DNA from: Rhodobacter maris
GTDB taxonomy: Bacteria > Pseudomonadota > Alphaproteobacteria > Rhodobacterales > Rhodobacteraceae
Direction of reading: 5' to 3'
Length of the DNA: 64,000 nt
NCBI RefSeq assembly: GCF_900217815.1
Contig: NZ_OBMT01000007.1
Span: 62,001 to 126,000, forward strand
In this document: one piece after another, positions 52,324 to 64,000 of the stretch
How the letters are laid out: each line of letters begins with the position of its first letter
How positions within the stretch are numbered: position 1 is the first letter of the stretch
Program-made: the position numbers and the translations under genes
The notes under the pieces: generated by a model
What the model saw: the letters and a program-made list of their open reading frames with translations, nothing else
Told to the model about the DNA's origin: nothing
The model's database searches: none

Positions 52324-53235
52324 TCAGACCGGAAGCGGGATCAGGGCCCAGAAGCCGAGGAAGCTCAGCAGGTTGACGGCAAAGGTCATGACCGCGATCG
52401 CGCAGGCCGGCGGGTCGATATGGGTGTCGCCATGGCACAGGAAGGCGCGGGCGAAGAACTCACCGAGGAAGGCCGAGAGGATGCCGATCACCGCGCCCCA
52501 GATCACGCTGCCGGAGGCGACGCCCGCGAGGGCTGCGGGCAGCATGATGTGGTGCGAGACGGGGGTAAGCACACCCAGCGTCAGGAACAGAAGGCTCGAG
52601 GCCGCGATGCCGAAGGCCAGAAGCGCGCCGGGCACACCATGGGTCACGCCGAGCCAGCCGCCAAGGAGCCCGCCGCCAAGCCCGATCACCACGATCTGCG
52701 CGAAGCTCGACTGGAACACCAGCCATTTGGTGGCGTCGGTCGGGTGGAAGAAGCCACGGCCCGGATCGGCCTTGCCGCAAAGCCCGCAGGTGCCCCACAG
52801 GAAGCGCGCGATAAAGGCGGAGATCACCACGCCAACGGCCGGAAGGTCGCTGAAGGCGAGGCCCGGGCCGAAGCTCGGAACAAAGGTGAGCGCCCAGAAG
52901 ATCAGATAGCCGACCACGCCGAACACGCCGCCCACAAGGAGCACGTCCGGGCTGTTGAGCCCCATGCCCGCGGTGACGATGTTGCGCCCGCTATCAAGCT
53001 TGCCCTTCTTGGCGGCATAGGCGGCGGCGGCCACGCCCGCAGCAAAGCCGCCCGTGTGCGGGCCAAAGGCGCCAAAGGGGATGCCGAAGAAATCGGTGGC
53101 CTCGGGGGCGACTGCCATCTGGATCGCCACGCCGATCATCGTCAGGAAGCCGACGAAGGTGAAAGCCGGGAGCGCACCGATTGCGGCCCCGAATATACCG
53201 CCGCCAAAGGCGACGAGCAAACCGAGCAGTGTCAT
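52324..53235 (-). CDS. Unassigned multi-pass membrane protein linked to ackA and microcompartment locus
   Basis: A 303-residue integral membrane protein with eight or nine hydrophobic segments and glycine-rich helices (LLVAFGGGIFGAAIGALPAF; VIGLGGGLLGGWLGV). Two soluble elements stand out: GTCGLCGKADPGRGFFHP near residue 150 and LCHGDTHIDPPACAIAV near residue 272, with conserved-looking Cys, His and Asp. HTGGFAAGVAAAAYAAKKGK is another polar loop. I do not recognise a named transporter family with certainty. Position upstream of ackA and divergent from the microcompartment operon suggests transport of the diol, propanol or propionate, but this is inference. AAGGAGA precedes the ATG. It is the first gene of the leftward unit. 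Confidence 0.6.
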   Translation of the reverse strand: MTLLGLLVAFGGGIFGAAIGALPAFTFVGFLTMIGVAIQMAVAPEATDFFGIPFGAFGPHTGGFAAGVAAAAYAAKKGKLDSGRNIVTAGMGLNSPDVLLVGGVFGVVGYLIFWALTFVPSFGPGLAFSDLPAVGVVISAFIARFLWGTCGLCGKADPGRGFFHPTDATKWLVFQSSFAQIVVIGLGGGLLGGWLGVTHGVPGALLAFGIAASSLLFLTLGVLTPVSHHIMLPAALAGVASGSVIWGAVIGILSAFLGEFFARAFLCHGDTHIDPPACAIAVMTFAVNLLSFLGFWALIPLPV

Positions 53236-54579: not shown

Positions 54580-57105
54580 ATGATTGAGAAGGGCTTCACC
54601 AAACCGACCGACCGTATCACGCGGTTGAAAAACCAGATCCTGAACGCCCGGCCCTATGTGGAGGCGGAACGCGCGGTGCTGGCCACCGAAGCGTACAAGG
54701 CGACCGAAGGTCTGCCGCCGATCCTGCGTCGTGCCCGGGTGGTGGAAAAAATCTTTGCGGAACTGCCGATCACGATCCGCGACGACGAACTTGTCGTGGG
54801 CTCGATCACCATCAACCCGCGTTCGACCGAAATCTGCCCCGAATTCAGCTTCGACTGGGTGGAAAAAGAGTTCGAAACGATGGCTGGCCGCGTTGCCGAC
54901 CCGTTCGAGATCCCGAAGGAAACCGCCGCGGCGCTCCATGAAGCGTTCAAATACTGGCCCGGCCGCACCACTTCGGACCTTGCCTCCTCCTATATGTCGC
55001 AAAAGGCCAAGGACTGCATGGCCAACGGCGTCTTCACCGTCGGCAACTACTTCTACGGCGGCGTCGGCCACGTCTGCGTTGACTACGGCAAAATCCTGAA
55101 GATCGGCTTCTCCGGCGTCATCATGGAAGCGATCAAGCGTCGCGAATTCCTTGACGACAAAGACCCCGACGCGATCAAGAAAAACCAGTTCTACACCGCC
55201 GTCATCATCGCCTACAAAGCCGCGATCGATTTCGCGCATCGCTATGCGGACAAGGCCGAGGAACTGGCCAAAGCCTGCTCCAATCCGACCCGCAAGGCCG
55301 AGCTTGAGCAAATCGCCAAGAACTGCCGCCGCGTGCCCGAACATGGCGCCACCACCTTCTGGGAAGCCTGCCAGACAATGTGGTTCATCCAGTGCATGTT
55401 GCAGATCGAAAGCTCGGGCCACTCGATCTCGCCCGGTCGCTTCGACCAATACATGTATCCCTACCTGAAAGCCGATACCTCGATCAGCCGCGAAGCCGCG
55501 CAAGAGCTTGTCGACTGCATCTGGATCAAGCTCAACGACGTCAACAAGACGCGCGATGAAGTTTCGGCCCAGGCCTTCGCGGGCTATGCCGTGTTCCAGA
55601 ACCTCTGCGTGGGCGGGCAAACCGAAGACGGGCTCGATGCCACGAACGACGTGTCTTACATGTGTATGGAAGCCGTCGCTCACGTTCGCCTTCCGGCGCC
55701 CTCGTTCTCGATCCGCGTCTGGCAAGGCACGCCCGACGAGTTCCTGCACCGCGCCGCCGAAGTGGTGCGCCTCGGGCTCGGCGTTCCGGCTGTCTACAAC
55801 GACGAGGTAATCATCCCGTCGCTGCAAAACCGGGGTGTCTCGCTCGCTGATGCCCGCGATTACGGCATCGTCGGCTGCGTGGAACCGCAGGCGATCCACC
55901 GCACCGAAGGCTGGCACGACGCGGCCTTCTTCAACGTGGCGAAGGTGCTCGAGATCACGCTCAACAACGGCAAGGTGGGCGATCTGCAACTCGGCCCGGT
56001 CACCGGCGACGCGAAAGAGTGGAAATCGCTCGAAGATTTCTATGCCGCCTTCTCGGGGCAAATGGCCTTCTTCGTCAAATATCTGGCCGAAGCCGACAAC
56101 TGTGTCGACATCGCCCATGCCGAACGGGCGCCGCTGCCCTTCCTCTCGGCGATGGTCGATGACTGCATGGGCCGCGGCAAGTCGGTGCAGGAAGGTGGGG
56201 CGATCTACAACTTCACCGGCCCGCAAGCCTTCGGCGTCGCCGACACCGGTGACTCGGTCTATGCGATGAAGAAATTCGTCTTCGACGGCAAGAAGCTGAC
56301 GATGGCGGAACTGAAGGAAGCGCTCGACGCGAACTTCGGCATGGTGGCGAGCAGCAATGCTCCCTCGGGCGAAATGAGCGAAGCGCAGGTTTACGAAGCG
56401 GTGAAGAAAGTTCTCGCCTCGAATGCCTCGCTCGATGTCGCGGCGCTGAAAGACGAGGTCTATCGCACCCTCGCCACCGGGGCGGCCCCGGCCGGTGCGC
56501 CGAAATACGACGGCATCCGCCGCCTGCTCGACTCGGCCGAAGCCTTCGGCAACGACAATGACGATGTCGACCTGATCGCCCGCAAATGCGCTCAGATCTA
56601 CTGCAAGGAAGTGGAAAAATACACCAACCCGCGGGGTGGCCAGTTCCAGGCCGGGATCTATCCGGTGTCTGCCAACGTGCTCTTCGGCAAGGATGTGGGC
56701 GCGCTGCCCGATGGCCGCCCGGCCAAGCTTCCGCTCGCCGATGGTGTGTCTCCGCGCCAGGGCAAGGACCGTCTCGGCCCGACCGCCGCTGCGAACTCCG
56801 TCGCCAAGCTGGACCACTTCATCGCCTCGAACGGCACGCTCTACAACCAGAAATTCCTGCCCTCCGCTCTGGCAGGCGATACCGGGTTGCAGAACTTCGC
56901 CTCGCTCGTGCGCTCCTACTTCGACCACAAGGGGATGCATGTGCAGTTCAACGTGATCGACCGCGAAACGCTGCTCAAGGCGCAGAAAAACCCCGAGGAC
57001 TACAATGACCTCGTGGTGCGGGTGGCCGGTTACTCGGCGCAGTTCGTCGTGCTCGCGAAAGAAGTGCAGGACGACATCATCAGCCGGACGGAACAACAGT
57101 TCTGA
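54580..57105 (+). CDS. Glycyl radical diol dehydratase (1,2-propanediol dehydratase type)
   Basis: An 841-residue glycyl radical enzyme. Catalytic Cys433 and Glu435 lie in GIVGCVEPQ; the radical glycine is Gly817 in RVAGYSAQF. GCVEPQ plus EGWHDAAFFN fits the B12-independent propanediol/glycerol dehydratases and not pyruvate formate-lyase, and argues against choline lyase CutC, though that family is close. It removes water from 1,2-propanediol to give propionaldehyde inside the microcompartment. The protein starts directly with the enzyme domain (KPTDRITRLKNQILNARPYV), so there is no obvious N-terminal targeting extension. GGAGGA sits before the ATG. Needs a radical-SAM activase not present in the window. 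Confidence 0.88.
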   Translation: MIEKGFTKPTDRITRLKNQILNARPYVEAERAVLATEAYKATEGLPPILRRARVVEKIFAELPITIRDDELVVGSITINPRSTEICPEFSFDWVEKEFETMAGRVADPFEIPKETAAALHEAFKYWPGRTTSDLASSYMSQKAKDCMANGVFTVGNYFYGGVGHVCVDYGKILKIGFSGVIMEAIKRREFLDDKDPDAIKKNQFYTAVIIAYKAAIDFAHRYADKAEELAKACSNPTRKAELEQIAKNCRRVPEHGATTFWEACQTMWFIQCMLQIESSGHSISPGRFDQYMYPYLKADTSISREAAQELVDCIWIKLNDVNKTRDEVSAQAFAGYAVFQNLCVGGQTEDGLDATNDVSYMCMEAVAHVRLPAPSFSIRVWQGTPDEFLHRAAEVVRLGLGVPAVYNDEVIIPSLQNRGVSLADARDYGIVGCVEPQAIHRTEGWHDAAFFNVAKVLEITLNNGKVGDLQLGPVTGDAKEWKSLEDFYAAFSGQMAFFVKYLAEADNCVDIAHAERAPLPFLSAMVDDCMGRGKSVQEGGAIYNFTGPQAFGVADTGDSVYAMKKFVFDGKKLTMAELKEALDANFGMVASSNAPSGEMSEAQVYEAVKKVLASNASLDVAALKDEVYRTLATGAAPAGAPKYDGIRRLLDSAEAFGNDNDDVDLIARKCAQIYCKEVEKYTNPRGGQFQAGIYPVSANVLFGKDVGALPDGRPAKLPLADGVSPRQGKDRLGPTAAANSVAKLDHFIASNGTLYNQKFLPSALAGDTGLQNFASLVRSYFDHKGMHVQFNVIDRETLLKAQKNPEDYNDLVVRVAGYSAQFVVLAKEVQDDIISRTEQQF

Positions 57106-58762: not shown

Positions 58763-59572
58763 ATGAAAGACGATCTTGTCGAAAAACTGATGGATGAGGT
58801 GATGCGGAAGATGAGCCCCGAGGCTCCCGCTGCGGCCCCCGTCGAAGCCGCCGCGCCCAAAGCCGCGCCGAAAAAAGCCTGCAACCTCACCGAATTCGTC
58901 GGCACTGCCATCGGCAACACCGTCGGTCTGGTGATCGCCAATGTCGATCCGCTGCTGCATGAGCAGATGAAGATCGACAAGAAATACCGCTCGATCGGTA
59001 TTGTCGGTGCGCGCACCGGGGCAGGCCCGCATATCTTTGCCGCCGATGAAGCGGTGAAGGCGACCAACAGCGAAGTGGTGCTGATCGAACTGCCGCGCGA
59101 CACCGAAGGCGGTGCCGGCCACGGCTCGCTGATCCTGTTTGGCGCGGAAGATGTCTCGGATGCGCGCCGCGCCGTCGAGGTTACGCTCTCCGAGCTTAAC
59201 CGCACCTTTGGCGACGTCTACGGCAACTCGGCCGGTCACCTGGAATTCCAGTATACCGCCCGCGCGTCCTATGCGCTCAACAAGGCCTTCGGGGCGCCGC
59301 TTGGCCAGGCCTTCGGCATCACCGTGGGTGCGCCTGCCGCGATTGGTGTGCTGATGGCCGATACCGCCGCGAAAGCCGCGACGGTCGTGCCGGTGGCCTA
59401 TTCGTCCCCCGGCAACGGCGGCACCAGCTTCTCGAACGAGGTGATCTTGTGCTTCACCGGCGACTCCGGCGCCGTGCGGCAAGCGATCATTGCCGCGCGC
59501 GATGTCGGCAAGCAGGTGCTGTCCACGCTCGACGGGGCGGAACTGGTCTCCTCGACCACCCCCTACATCTGA
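58763..59572 (+). CDS. Microcompartment shell trimer (BMC-T, PduB-like)
   Basis: A 269-residue tandem BMC-domain protein. An N-terminal amphipathic helix (DDLVEKLMDEVMRKM) and an Ala/Pro-rich linker precede the first BMC domain (FVGTAIGNTVGLVIANVD), with the second around ASYALNKAFGAPLGQAFGITVGAPA. GAGPHIFAADEAVKATNSEVV and GNGGTSFSNEVIL fit the PduB/EtuB family. PduB's N-terminal peptide links shell to enzyme core, so the helix here may have that job. GGAAGGAGG lies just before the ATG. Confidence 0.93.
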   Translation: MKDDLVEKLMDEVMRKMSPEAPAAAPVEAAAPKAAPKKACNLTEFVGTAIGNTVGLVIANVDPLLHEQMKIDKKYRSIGIVGARTGAGPHIFAADEAVKATNSEVVLIELPRDTEGGAGHGSLILFGAEDVSDARRAVEVTLSELNRTFGDVYGNSAGHLEFQYTARASYALNKAFGAPLGQAFGITVGAPAAIGVLMADTAAKAATVVPVAYSSPGNGGTSFSNEVILCFTGDSGAVRQAIIAARDVGKQVLSTLDGAELVSSTTPYI

Positions 59573-59604: not shown

Positions 59605-60222
59605 ATGTCGGAACAAAGCCTTGGATTGATCGAGACGGCGGGTCTGGCGGCGGCTGTGACCGCGGCGGATGCGGCGGTCAAATCGGCCAATGTCACGCTT
59701 GTCGGCTATGAACTCACCAAGGGTGACGGCATGGCGGTGGTAAAACTGCGCGGCGATGTGGGGGCTGTGAAAGCCGCCATCGAGGCAGCGCAGGCGGCGG
59801 CGGGGCGCGTCGGACGGGTCGTGGCGACCCGGGTCATCGCACGCCCCGCCGACGGTCTCAAAGGGATCGTCGAGAGCCGCGAAACGATCGGGTGGGCCCG
59901 GAGCGGTGAAGGTTATCCCGCTGCCACAGCTCCGCACCCGGAGGCGCCCGCCGAGAAGGCGCCGAACCTGCCGGATGCGTCTTCCTCGGACGCATCCGGC
60001 ACCCAGGCAACCGAGGAGGCGGCACCCGAGCCCGAACCCGAGCCGGCCGCACCCGAAGCCCCGGTTGACGGTGCGCCCGAACCGGCCGCCGTGGTCCTGG
60101 AAGACCCGGAACCGCAGCCCGAGGCTGAACCGGCCTCCGCATCTGCCCCGGCACCGAAATCCGCGCCCCAACCGAGCCCGCCGCGCCCGTCGCGGCCGGT
60201 CAAGGGACCGAAGAACCGTTGA
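59605..60222 (+). CDS. Shell hexamer with long acidic/proline-rich C-terminal tail
   Basis: A 205-residue protein. Residues 1-87 form a BMC-H domain ([39 protein letters not shown]). The pore loop is ELTKGDG instead of EKIGSG, so the pore differs from the upstream hexamer. Residues about 90-205 are a low-complexity tail rich in Pro, Ala and Glu with a repeated EPEPEP-like run and a basic end [11 protein letters not shown]. PduK and EutK also have C-terminal extensions, but theirs are folded or carry metal sites; this one looks disordered. No domain recognised in the tail. Confidence 0.9.
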
Positions 60223-60923: not shown

Positions 60924-61760
60924 ATGCCCGGCCCGGACGACATCCTGCGCGACTTCGGCGCCCTTCTGCGGGAGGGCGCGATCCTGCCCCGCGAAGAGCG
61001 CGCCGCGGGCCCGCTCCGGGTCGGCGTCGATCTGGGCACGGCAAACCTCGTGCTTGCCGTCACCGATGCGGCGAGCCGCCCGGTGGCGGGACTGACCGAA
61101 CGCTCGGGCGGCATCCGCGACGGGATCGTGGTCGATTACGCGGGCACGGTGCGTGCGGTGCGGCGAATGAAGGCGGAGCTTGAGGCGCGGCTGGGCGAGA
61201 AGCTCCTGCGCGCGGCGACCGCCATTCCCCCCGGCATCCACCCGGGCGCCGCCAAGGCGATCGGCAATGTGATCGAGGCTGCCGATTTCGAGCTTGCCTG
61301 CATCGTCGATGAGCCCGTTGCCGCGGCGCGGGTGCTTGGCGTCACCGATGGCGCCGTGGTCGATGTGGGCGGCGGCACCACCGGCATTTCGGTGCTGCGC
61401 GGCGGCACGGTGCTCGCCTCGGTCGACGAGGCGACGGGCGGCACGCATATGACCCTGGTGCTCGCGGGCGCGCTCCGGCTCGATCTGGCCGCGGCCGAGG
61501 CGATGAAGCTCGACCCGGCGCAGGCGCGGGACGTGTTCGCGCTGGTGCGCCCGGTGGTCGACAAGATGGCCGCGATCGTTGCCGGGGTGGTGGACCGCTA
61601 TCCGACACTCGACACCGTCCATGTTGTGGGCGGGGCCTGCAGCTTTGAGGAATTTGGCGCGGTGTTCGCGGCGCGGCTCGGGCGCAGGGTGATCAAGCCC
61701 GCCGAACCGCTGCTCGTGACGCCGCTTGGTATCGCGCTTTTTGCCGGGGAGGGGCGGTGA
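60924..61760 (+). CDS. EutJ-like Hsp70-fold ATPase
   Basis: A 278-residue actin/Hsp70-fold protein of the EutJ family. Phosphate-1 loop VGVDLGTANLVLAVTDA, connect region DGIVVDYAGTVRAVRRMK, phosphate-2 VDVGGGTTGISVLRGG and the adenosine motif VVGGACSFEEFGAVFAARLG are seen. It lacks a peptide-binding domain. EutJ is thought to help enzyme folding or reactivation inside microcompartments, without firm evidence. The N-terminus GPDDILRDFGALLREG looks like an amphipathic targeting helix. Stop overlaps the next ATG by one base (TGATG). Confidence 0.88.
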   Translation: MPGPDDILRDFGALLREGAILPREERAAGPLRVGVDLGTANLVLAVTDAASRPVAGLTERSGGIRDGIVVDYAGTVRAVRRMKAELEARLGEKLLRAATAIPPGIHPGAAKAIGNVIEAADFELACIVDEPVAAARVLGVTDGAVVDVGGGTTGISVLRGGTVLASVDEATGGTHMTLVLAGALRLDLAAAEAMKLDPAQARDVFALVRPVVDKMAAIVAGVVDRYPTLDTVHVVGGACSFEEFGAVFAARLGRRVIKPAEPLLVTPLGIALFAGEGR

Positions 61761-62461
61761 TGGATCTCGACCGCATCCTGATCGACGCGCTCTCGGACCG
61801 GATCGTGGCCGCGCTGAAGGCGCGTTCGCGCCGGGCGCTCGTCGTCTTTTCCGATACCGATCTGGGGCTTGAACCGGCGCTGGCCGGGCTCGAGACCCTC
61901 AGCGCGGCGGGCTGGACCGGCGACTGGCTCGCCGCGCCCGAGATGCGCGATGGGCTCGCGCCGCGGCTGCGGTTGCCCGAGGCGGAGGCCGCGCCGCGGC
62001 TCACGCGCTTTGGCCTTGTGCTGGTGCCTGCGCTGAGCCTTTCGACCGCGGCCAAACTCGCCACCGGCATTGCCGATGATCTGCCCTCGCGGGTGCTGGG
62101 CGAAGCGCTCGACCGCGGGCTGCGCGTGGTCGCGGCGCGCGATGGCGTCTGCCCGGCATCGCGCGAGCGCGCAGCGCGTGGGCTCACGCCCAAAAACGCC
62201 GCGCGCCGGGCGATGATGTCCGCCCATCTGGAGGAGATTGCGGCGCAGGGCGTGGAGTTGTGCTGGGCGACGCGGCTGGCCGCGACGGTTCAGGGCACGC
62301 CCGCCGCGATGGCGGCCCCGGCGCAGCAGACGGGCATTTTGGGCTGGCAGCAGGCGCGCGCCTGCCCCGGCCCCGAATTGCGGCTGGGCCGCGCGGTGCG
62401 GCTGACGCCGCTCGCCTCCGACATCCTGTCGGCGCGCGGCATCCGGCTGATCAGAGAGTGA
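61760..62461 (+). CDS. Microcompartment-associated flavoprotein-like protein
   Basis: A 233-residue protein. ALVVFSDTDLGLEPALAGLETLSAAGW is an N-terminal Rossmann-like segment. The central LVLVPALSLSTAAKLATGIADDLPSRV matches the HFCD flavoprotein pattern (Pro-Ala-x-x-x-Thr-x-Ala-Lys-x-Ala-x-Gly-Ile-Ala-Asp), where FMN is bound. Such flavoproteins occur in other diol microcompartment loci and may handle cofactor redox state. The N-terminal helix MDLDRILIDALSDRIVAALK is amphipathic. I chose ATG 61760; the GTG one codon earlier is in frame. Function unproven. Confidence 0.68.
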   Translation: MDLDRILIDALSDRIVAALKARSRRALVVFSDTDLGLEPALAGLETLSAAGWTGDWLAAPEMRDGLAPRLRLPEAEAAPRLTRFGLVLVPALSLSTAAKLATGIADDLPSRVLGEALDRGLRVVAARDGVCPASRERAARGLTPKNAARRAMMSAHLEEIAAQGVELCWATRLAATVQGTPAAMAAPAQQTGILGWQQARACPGPELRLGRAVRLTPLASDILSARGIRLIRE

Positions 62462-62755: not shown

Positions 62756-63229
62756 ATGGCGCTGATCGACCGCATTCTTGCTACCGAACTGGCCACGCGC
62801 CGCCCGCTCGTGCTGTTCGACGCCTGCCGGATCGCTGCGCGCGCCGAACTTGAGGCGCGGCATATGGGTGTTCCGGTCTGCGTGGCGCTGTGCGACGGGG
62901 CCGGCGAGGCGCTTCTCTTCCATCGGATGGAAGGCGCGCTGCCCGCCTCGAGCGTGCTCGCGCCCGCCAAGGCGCGCACCGCGGCGCGCTACCGGATGGG
63001 CACGGACGAACTTGGCCTTCTGTGTGCCCCGGGCGGGATGCTCGAAGGCCTCGGCGCGGCGGAAAGCGGGCTCGTGCTTTTTGGTGGCGGCCTGCCGATC
63101 CGGGCGGGTGCGGCGGTGCTTGGCGCCATCGGGATCAGCGGCGGCAGCGTCGCGGAAGACATGCAGATCGCCCGTGCGGCGATCGCAGGACATTGGGGCG
63201 CGGCCCTCGAGAAAGGACAAGGAAGATGA
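62756..63229 (+). CDS. GlcG/HbpS/PduO-C-like protein
   Basis: A 157-residue protein of the GlcG/HbpS (DUF336) fold, the family of the PduO C-terminal domain. MGVPVCVALCDGAGEALLFHRMEGALPASSVLAPAKARTAA is the typical strand-helix core (read in parts), and GAIGISGGSVAEDMQIARAAI the conserved C-terminal motif. PduO-C binds haem or cobalamin in B12-dependent loci; in this B12-independent locus its job is unclear. The N-terminus ALIDRILATELATRR is an amphipathic helix. Overlaps the aldehyde dehydrogenase gene by ATGA. Confidence 0.82.
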   Translation: MALIDRILATELATRRPLVLFDACRIAARAELEARHMGVPVCVALCDGAGEALLFHRMEGALPASSVLAPAKARTAARYRMGTDELGLLCAPGGMLEGLGAAESGLVLFGGGLPIRAGAAVLGAIGISGGSVAEDMQIARAAIAGHWGAALEKGQGR

Positions 63230-64000
63230 AAGACAGCGATATCGAAGACGCCGTGGCCCGCGTGCTGAGCGGCTATACCGGGGCGGCCGCGCCCGCCCCC
63301 GGTGCCTCCTCTCCGACGGCCCCCTCTCACAAACCCTCGATCGAAGGCTGCGTCTGGGAAGCGACGAAACCGGCCGATCCGATGGATGACATCATCGGCG
63401 GCATCCTCACCCGGGCGCTGAGCGAGCGCAACTGCTCCTGCTGCAAGACCGGCGATTGCAAGGGCGCTACCGGTTGCCTCTCGATCTCGGACGCCGAGGC
63501 GGTGGAGCTGGGCGACGGCATTTTCGAAACGATGGACGCGGCGATCAACGCCGCTGCCGAGGCGCAGAAGAAATACCTGTTCTGCTCGATGGCGGACCGC
63601 AAGCGCTTTGTGGACGGTATCCGGAGCATTTTCACCGACCCGGCGATCCTTGAGCGGATCTCGCGCCTCACCGTCGAGCAAACGGGCATGGGCAATGTCG
63701 AGCACAAGATCATCAAGAACCGGCTTGCGGCCGAAAACAGCCCCGGCATCGAGGATCTGGTGACCGAAGCGCAAAGCGGCGATGACGGGCTCACCCTCGT
63801 GGAACTCTCGCCCTATGGCGTGATCGGCGCGATCACTCCGACGACCAACCCGACCGAAACGATCATCTGCAACGGCATCGGCATGCTTGCGGCCGGCAAT
63901 GCGGCGGTGTTCAGCCCGCATCCGCGCGCCCGCGGCGTCTCGCTCCTCGCGATCAAACTGATCAACCGCAAGCTGGCCGCGCTTGGCGCGCCCGCGAACC
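63226..64000 (+). CDS. CoA-acylating aldehyde dehydrogenase (PduP-like), 3' end outside window
   Basis: The first 258 residues of a microcompartment aldehyde dehydrogenase that turns propionaldehyde, NAD+ and CoA into propionyl-CoA. An N-terminal amphipathic helix (DSDIEDAVARVLSGY) and Ala/Pro linker look like an encapsulation peptide. Residues 70-84 carry five cysteines (NCSCCKTGDCKGATGC), which is not part of the usual PduP/EutE N-terminus. The dehydrogenase domain starts about residue 98 (GIFETMDAAINAAAEAQKKYL) and contains ELSPYGVIGAITPTTNPTETI and the GNAAVFSPHP cofactor region. The catalytic Cys lies beyond the window. AAGGAAG precedes the ATG. Confidence 0.9.
   Translation, partial: MKDSDIEDAVARVLSGYTGAAAPAPGASSPTAPSHKPSIEGCVWEATKPADPMDDIIGGILTRALSERNCSCCKTGDCKGATGCLSISDAEAVELGDGIFETMDAAINAAAEAQKKYLFCSMADRKRFVDGIRSIFTDPAILERISRLTVEQTGMGNVEHKIIKNRLAAENSPGIEDLVTEAQSGDDGLTLVELSPYGVIGAITPTTNPTETIICNGIGMLAAGNAAVFSPHPRARGVSLLAIKLINRKLAALGAPAN

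Follow-up and report, generated by a model that had tools for sequence, protein, structure and literature searches.

A clade-specific cysteine cluster, and candidate metal site, in the packaging linker of a GRM3 aldehyde dehydrogenase

The nearest solved relatives of the enzyme discussed here are the GRM3 aldehyde dehydrogenases of R. palustris (5JFL, 5JFM, 5JFN and 6GVS). The core enzymes of that GRM3 system have been reconstituted in vitro in functional form, and the N-terminal extension of its aldehyde dehydrogenase, in which two amphipathic helices have been described, is disordered in crystals (PMC5311937). The gene set of GRM3 loci has been described as well (PMC4207490); by a published count, PduT or PduS is found in about two thirds of such loci, and the supply of electrons to the encapsulated activating enzymes of glycyl-radical microcompartments is an open question (PMC6325248). 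Under anaerobic conditions, RegA represses the R. capsulatus cluster homologous to the one studied here (rcc02199-rcc02213) 76- to 250-fold (PMC5359404).

Our locus lies towards the end of a 64,000-nucleotide stretch of Rhodobacter maris DNA, hereafter the window, and profile matches recover the gene set of a GRM3-type glycyl-radical microcompartment. It holds a glycyl radical enzyme (54580-57105), an iron-type alcohol dehydrogenase (AlcDH), shell genes for two BMC-H, one BMC-T and one EutN (BMC-P) protein, PTAC (PduL), EutJ, a 234-residue protein that occupies the GRM3 flavoprotein slot (61757-62461) and has no Pfam or NCBIfam match, and an HbpS/DUF336 protein (62756-63229) directly upstream of the aldehyde dehydrogenase gene; just past the window end come the activating enzyme, a radical-SAM protein containing a ferredoxin insert, and a histidine kinase of the PocR type. 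Several neighbours have features of their own: the flavoprotein-slot protein has a Cys132 that is conserved in syntenic loci, the BMC-T shell protein (58763-59572) has a Cys40 in its N-terminal segment that is conserved among the 18 loci compared, one BMC-H protein (59605-60222) has a long tail without PduK-type cysteines, and a protein predicted to lie in the membrane, encoded next to acetate kinase at the locus edge (52324-53235, minus strand), matches neither Pfam nor NCBIfam. In the interval from the gene of the glycyl radical enzyme to that of the activating enzyme, we recognised no PduS, PduT or GrpU, either here or in syntenic alphaproteobacterial loci, an absence that applies to the stretch examined, with the locus's own proteins as queries. 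The GRM3 locus is rare: even draws of 385 genomes from the class and 394 from the family returned only the genome of origin, and genus searches were therefore used instead.

The aldehyde dehydrogenase (AldDH) gene (63226..64000, forward strand) extends to about 64827, outside the window, where the contig completes the reading frame, and its ATG at 63226 overlaps the stop codon of the upstream HbpS-like gene (ATGA). The product, of 533 residues, belongs to the CoA-acylating aldehyde dehydrogenases of the PduP/EutE type and to GRM3, oxidises propionaldehyde and is presumably packed in a bacterial microcompartment; it matches the family profile NF011927 of NCBIfam at 704 bits (cutoff 403) and Pfam PF00171 at 111.6 bits. 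It aligns over its full length with 5JFL, 5JFN and 6GVS, and with the R. palustris BisB18 enzyme it shares end-to-end homology, the type of locus, a two-helix N-terminal encapsulation region (as predicted here) and the catalytic Cys, His, Thr and Glu. The catalytic domain, placed from Gly98 by the 5JFL alignment and the invariant columns (63517..64000, forward strand), has its catalytic residues beyond the window end; Cys339, Glu428, His458 and Thr459 are invariant columns of the homologue alignment and equal Cys330, Glu419, His449 and Thr450 of 5JFL in construct numbering, and the catalytic machinery is intact. What sets the two enzymes apart is the N-terminal extension, which in R. palustris BisB18 is without any cysteine.

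In the R. maris enzyme, this extension of about 97 residues carries the cluster N-C70-S-C72-C73-x4-C78-x5-C84 (63433..63477, forward strand). All five cysteines, reported by a first-pass annotation of the DNA, hold at the codon level, where residues 70, 72, 73, 78 and 84 are each encoded by TGC (at 63433, 63439, 63442, 63457 and 63475). The same annotation had placed the cluster between a presumed encapsulation helix and the catalytic domain; the position is right, but a second predicted helix intervenes and a sixth linker cysteine, Cys42 (63349-63351), whose conservation is broader than that of the five, had been overlooked. The presumed encapsulation peptide is the first amphipathic helix, residues 3-15 (63232..63270, forward strand), on which the sequence and the AF2 model agree, the latter with low confidence, and which corresponds to the encapsulation helix reported for its R. 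palustris counterpart (PMC5311937). Cys42 lies in a P-x3-G-C42-x-W segment recognised in the alignment (63334..63357, forward strand). The second helix of the encapsulation region, also amphipathic, is predicted by AF2 at residues 56-66 with pLDDT below 50 (63391..63423, forward strand), and the cluster follows between it and the catalytic domain. When all 12 cysteines of the protein were placed at random, five fell within 15 residues in 165 of 200,000 shuffles; together with the clade conservation described below, this rules out chance crowding as the sole explanation.

The predicted structure says little about the linker itself. The AF2 model, built with a 33-sequence alignment, has a mean pLDDT of 71 and falls below 50 at residues 49-83, a range that takes in most of the cluster and for which the model is uninformative; the low values suggest disorder, with the caveat that metals are not modelled by AF2. 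Together with the disorder of the R. palustris extension in crystals, they indicate that the apo linker is probably flexible. Residues 1-97 match no Pfam model even at an E-value of 10, including the ferredoxin-type Fer4 models that the activating enzyme of the same locus does match, and the best PDB hit of the extension has an E-value of 1.8. Judged by Pfam and the PDB, a known metal domain is thereby rejected for the extension.

The distribution of the cluster was followed through 80 homologous loci, found by scanning a single genome for each species, and further loci from genus and order searches, about 100 in total. The N-C-S-x-C motif was found in 11 enzymes, six from Rhodobacter and five from Rhizobium, and in a maximum-likelihood tree of the catalytic domain these form one clade (support 99/98), so that a single gain suffices. 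Elsewhere the picture is more diffuse: the Rhodovulum enzyme has C-C-W plus a CxxC, those of Cohaesibacter have one to four scattered linker cysteines at drifting positions, and the other long-extension alphaproteobacterial enzymes retain a counterpart of Cys42, in some cases alongside one more cysteine; the Cohaesibacter drift indicates that part of the linker cysteine content may be loosely constrained. The gammaproteobacterial, Firmicutes and R. palustris enzymes have no extension cysteines or an isolated one or two. As had been proposed, PduP/EutE enzymes usually lack the cluster: it is absent from E. coli PduP, from about 90 other homologous loci and from the R. palustris GRM3 enzyme, and the sampled loci and the R. 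palustris structures rule it out as a general feature of GRM aldehyde dehydrogenases. The expectation of conservation in orthologues is thus borne out inside one clade and fails outside it. At a separate locus, that of a Breoghania metagenome-assembled genome (L026), the glycyl radical enzyme, PduL, EutJ and AldDH genes all seem frameshifted, through either decay or assembly error.

Within the clade, Cys42, Cys70, Cys73 and Cys78 are invariant in all 11 members, as are Asn69 and Ser71, whereas the other two cysteines vary: Cys72 has been lost twice, to Asn in one Rhodobacter and to Gly in one Rhizobium enzyme, and Cys84 is restricted to Rhodobacter, with Ser in every Rhizobium member. The length and composition of the linker differ across the Rhodobacter-Rhizobium divide, and the six cysteine columns have a mean identity between the two groups of 0.75, rising to 1.0 for the four invariant ones, against 0.26 at the 69 other linker columns (column permutation p ~0.003, for columns that are not fully independent and with an aligner that favours matching cysteines). 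In one Rhizobium enzyme (L104), the segment of the second helix has been deleted and the four cysteines are retained as CX7CX2CX2C. Such a pattern is more readily explained by a single site of four cysteines than by five thiols that act separately. It also bears on a rival explanation, that the cysteines have no function and were simply passed down in a disordered linker that tolerates them: the low predicted order, the drifting cysteine number in Cohaesibacter and the failure to keep Cys72 and Cys84 are what drift would produce, but the invariance of four positions amid linker columns of such low identity is not, and we consider drift improbable.

Our preferred reading, which we hold tentatively and at somewhat less than even chances, is a lineage-specific four-cysteine metal site, gained once, that would fold the packaging linker of the AldDH. 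The cysteine motif would have arisen in the disordered encapsulation linker of one common ancestor of the GRM3 enzymes of Rhodobacter and Rhizobium, with Cys42, 70, 73 and 78 as the conserved set and Cys72 and Cys84 as extras. In the microcompartment lumen, the four thiolates would then most probably make up one small site that holds Zn(II) or Fe-S, tying the segment before the second helix to that just ahead of the catalytic domain, and the packaging arm would thereby be shortened and stiffened. We infer metal binding, the choice of metal and the structural role alike, and zinc is as possible as Fe-S at such a site. Against the metal-site reading count the lack of a matching metal-site family, the low AF2 order, the variable Cys72 and Cys84 and the drift in Cohaesibacter.

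Cysteines on a flexible arm may also act as thiols. Disulfides formed within or between subunits in an oxidised lumen could cross-link the AldDH core or lock encapsulation, and reopen under anaerobic conditions: a cysteine-rich arm on a tetramer could make such cross-links, RegA, a redox regulator, controls the homologous cluster of R. capsulatus (PMC5359404), and a changing number of cysteines, as observed, would be tolerated. Disulfides, however, need neither a fixed CxxCx4C spacing nor a Cys42 that is kept through the deletion of a helix, and the partner proteins offer little in return. Comparing cysteine columns between the cluster-bearing clade (n=8) and outgroup loci (n=10), we found that the glycyl radical enzyme, the shell proteins, PTAC, EutJ, EutN and the protein of the flavoprotein slot gained no cysteine that tracks the cluster. 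AlcDH has a partial cysteine column (7/8 in the clade against 2/10 in an outgroup that is mostly gaps), and the activating enzyme has one in 7/8 against 1/10, with Tyr in the R. maris protein. The one clear exception is the HbpS-like protein, with Cys at its position 42 in 8/8 clade members and 0/10 of the outgroup, a column that a neutral substitution of Cys for Val or Ala in a buried strand might explain just as well; apart from these three columns, a coordinated gain of cysteines in partners is ruled out. Redox-active thiols thus appear a rather unlikely explanation, if one to be taken seriously.

The HbpS-like column bears on a reading in which the cysteines are not ligands but ordinary side chains, the N-C-S-x-C and P-x3-G-C-x-W segments being recognised by another protein of the lumen. 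The neighbouring gene with its clade-specific cysteine would suit such docking, as would the invariance of Asn69 and Ser71 and the retention of Cys42, often as C-x-W, in alphaproteobacterial enzymes without the cluster, as expected of a short linear motif. Yet four conserved cysteines exceed what docking needs, the reading comes without an identified partner, and Trp44 is lost in two enzymes of the R. capsulatus group and in the Rhizobium group; we regard it as unlikely for the cluster. The segment around Cys42 can be considered separately, and a possible role for P-x3-x-C42-x-W is that of a short docking motif. Across long-extension alphaproteobacterial GRM3 enzymes this segment is kept far more widely than the cluster, the Trp being lost at times.

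The first-pass annotation had further suggested that the cysteines could bind an Fe-S cluster or zinc and connect the enzyme with redox state or the radical enzyme. In its strongest form, an Fe-S cluster on the packaging arm of the Rhodobacter and Rhizobium AldDHs would sense oxygen or the redox state, or act inside the lumen as an electron donor to the enzyme that activates the glycyl radical enzyme. With PduS, PduT and GrpU unrecognised in the stretch examined, an alternative carrier would be useful, and the cysteine spacing is compatible with Fe-S; the catalytic cycle of the AldDH, on the other hand, involves NAD and CoA only. Moreover, every GRM3 system needs activation of its glycyl radical enzyme, yet most GRM3 AldDHs are without the cluster, and the R. 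palustris system was reconstituted in vitro using an AldDH that lacks these cysteines (PMC5311937). We consider both the relay and the sensor very improbable and, since most GRM3 AldDHs do without the cluster, it unlikely that the radical enzyme is generally linked to the AldDH by redox; the suggestion is weakened further by the lack of a matching cysteine gain in the glycyl radical enzyme and the shell proteins.

Overall, the cluster is real and, judging from the alignments, under apparent constraint in one clade. Given this restriction, any function would be accessory rather than a core part of the system. The motif is small and is present in the R. capsulatus group, whose members lend themselves to laboratory work. 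Under the relay or sensor reading, the enzyme would be a CoA-acylating aldehyde dehydrogenase whose packaging domain holds Fe-S; a zinc site of structural role alone would, if true, still be uncommon in an encapsulation peptide.

Beyond R. palustris, the cluster can be set against known cysteine motifs. A search of the same genome for CxxCx4Cx5C returned, besides the AldDH, mostly short or implausible frames, and the only other match assignable to a protein family was an Rrf2/NsrR-like regulator (L118:1294-1863, minus strand; C16 near 19425). NsrR binds a [4Fe-4S] cluster through Cys93, 99 and 105 (PMC5411485), which align with the last three cysteine positions of the regulator's motif. The AldDH has only the spacing in common with this class, without homology, and its Cys84 is replaced by Ser in Rhizobium. 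Closer in setting is PduK, whose tail may ligate an Fe-S cluster through four cysteines (PMC6325248). The PduK tails of E. coli, Klebsiella and Listeria share CxxCx4Cx10C. They are, like the AldDH linker, appendages of a microcompartment protein with a CxxCx4C core, and the two motifs agree in their first three cysteines. PduK, however, is a BMC-H shell protein with the motif CNLCxDPxCxRxKG(D/E)PRxxC, while the AldDH has neither the NLC, DP and KGDP residues nor a BMC domain. The fourth cysteine of PduK, at +10, has no AldDH equivalent, and the resulting doubt over a fourth ligand counts against the metal-site reading. With CxxCx4C alone in common, membership of the PduK-type tetracysteine motif is rejected, and the likeness is a resemblance. 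Both likenesses speak for the metal-site reading by analogy: PduK and NsrR indicate that such spacing can hold Fe-S, not that the AldDH does so. For PduT and GrpU, too, a role in supplying GRM microcompartments with Fe-S clusters has been proposed (PMC6325248), but these are shell proteins with pore-borne ligands and are not recognised at this locus. A core enzyme with a cysteine site would be a candidate of a new kind for the supply of electrons.
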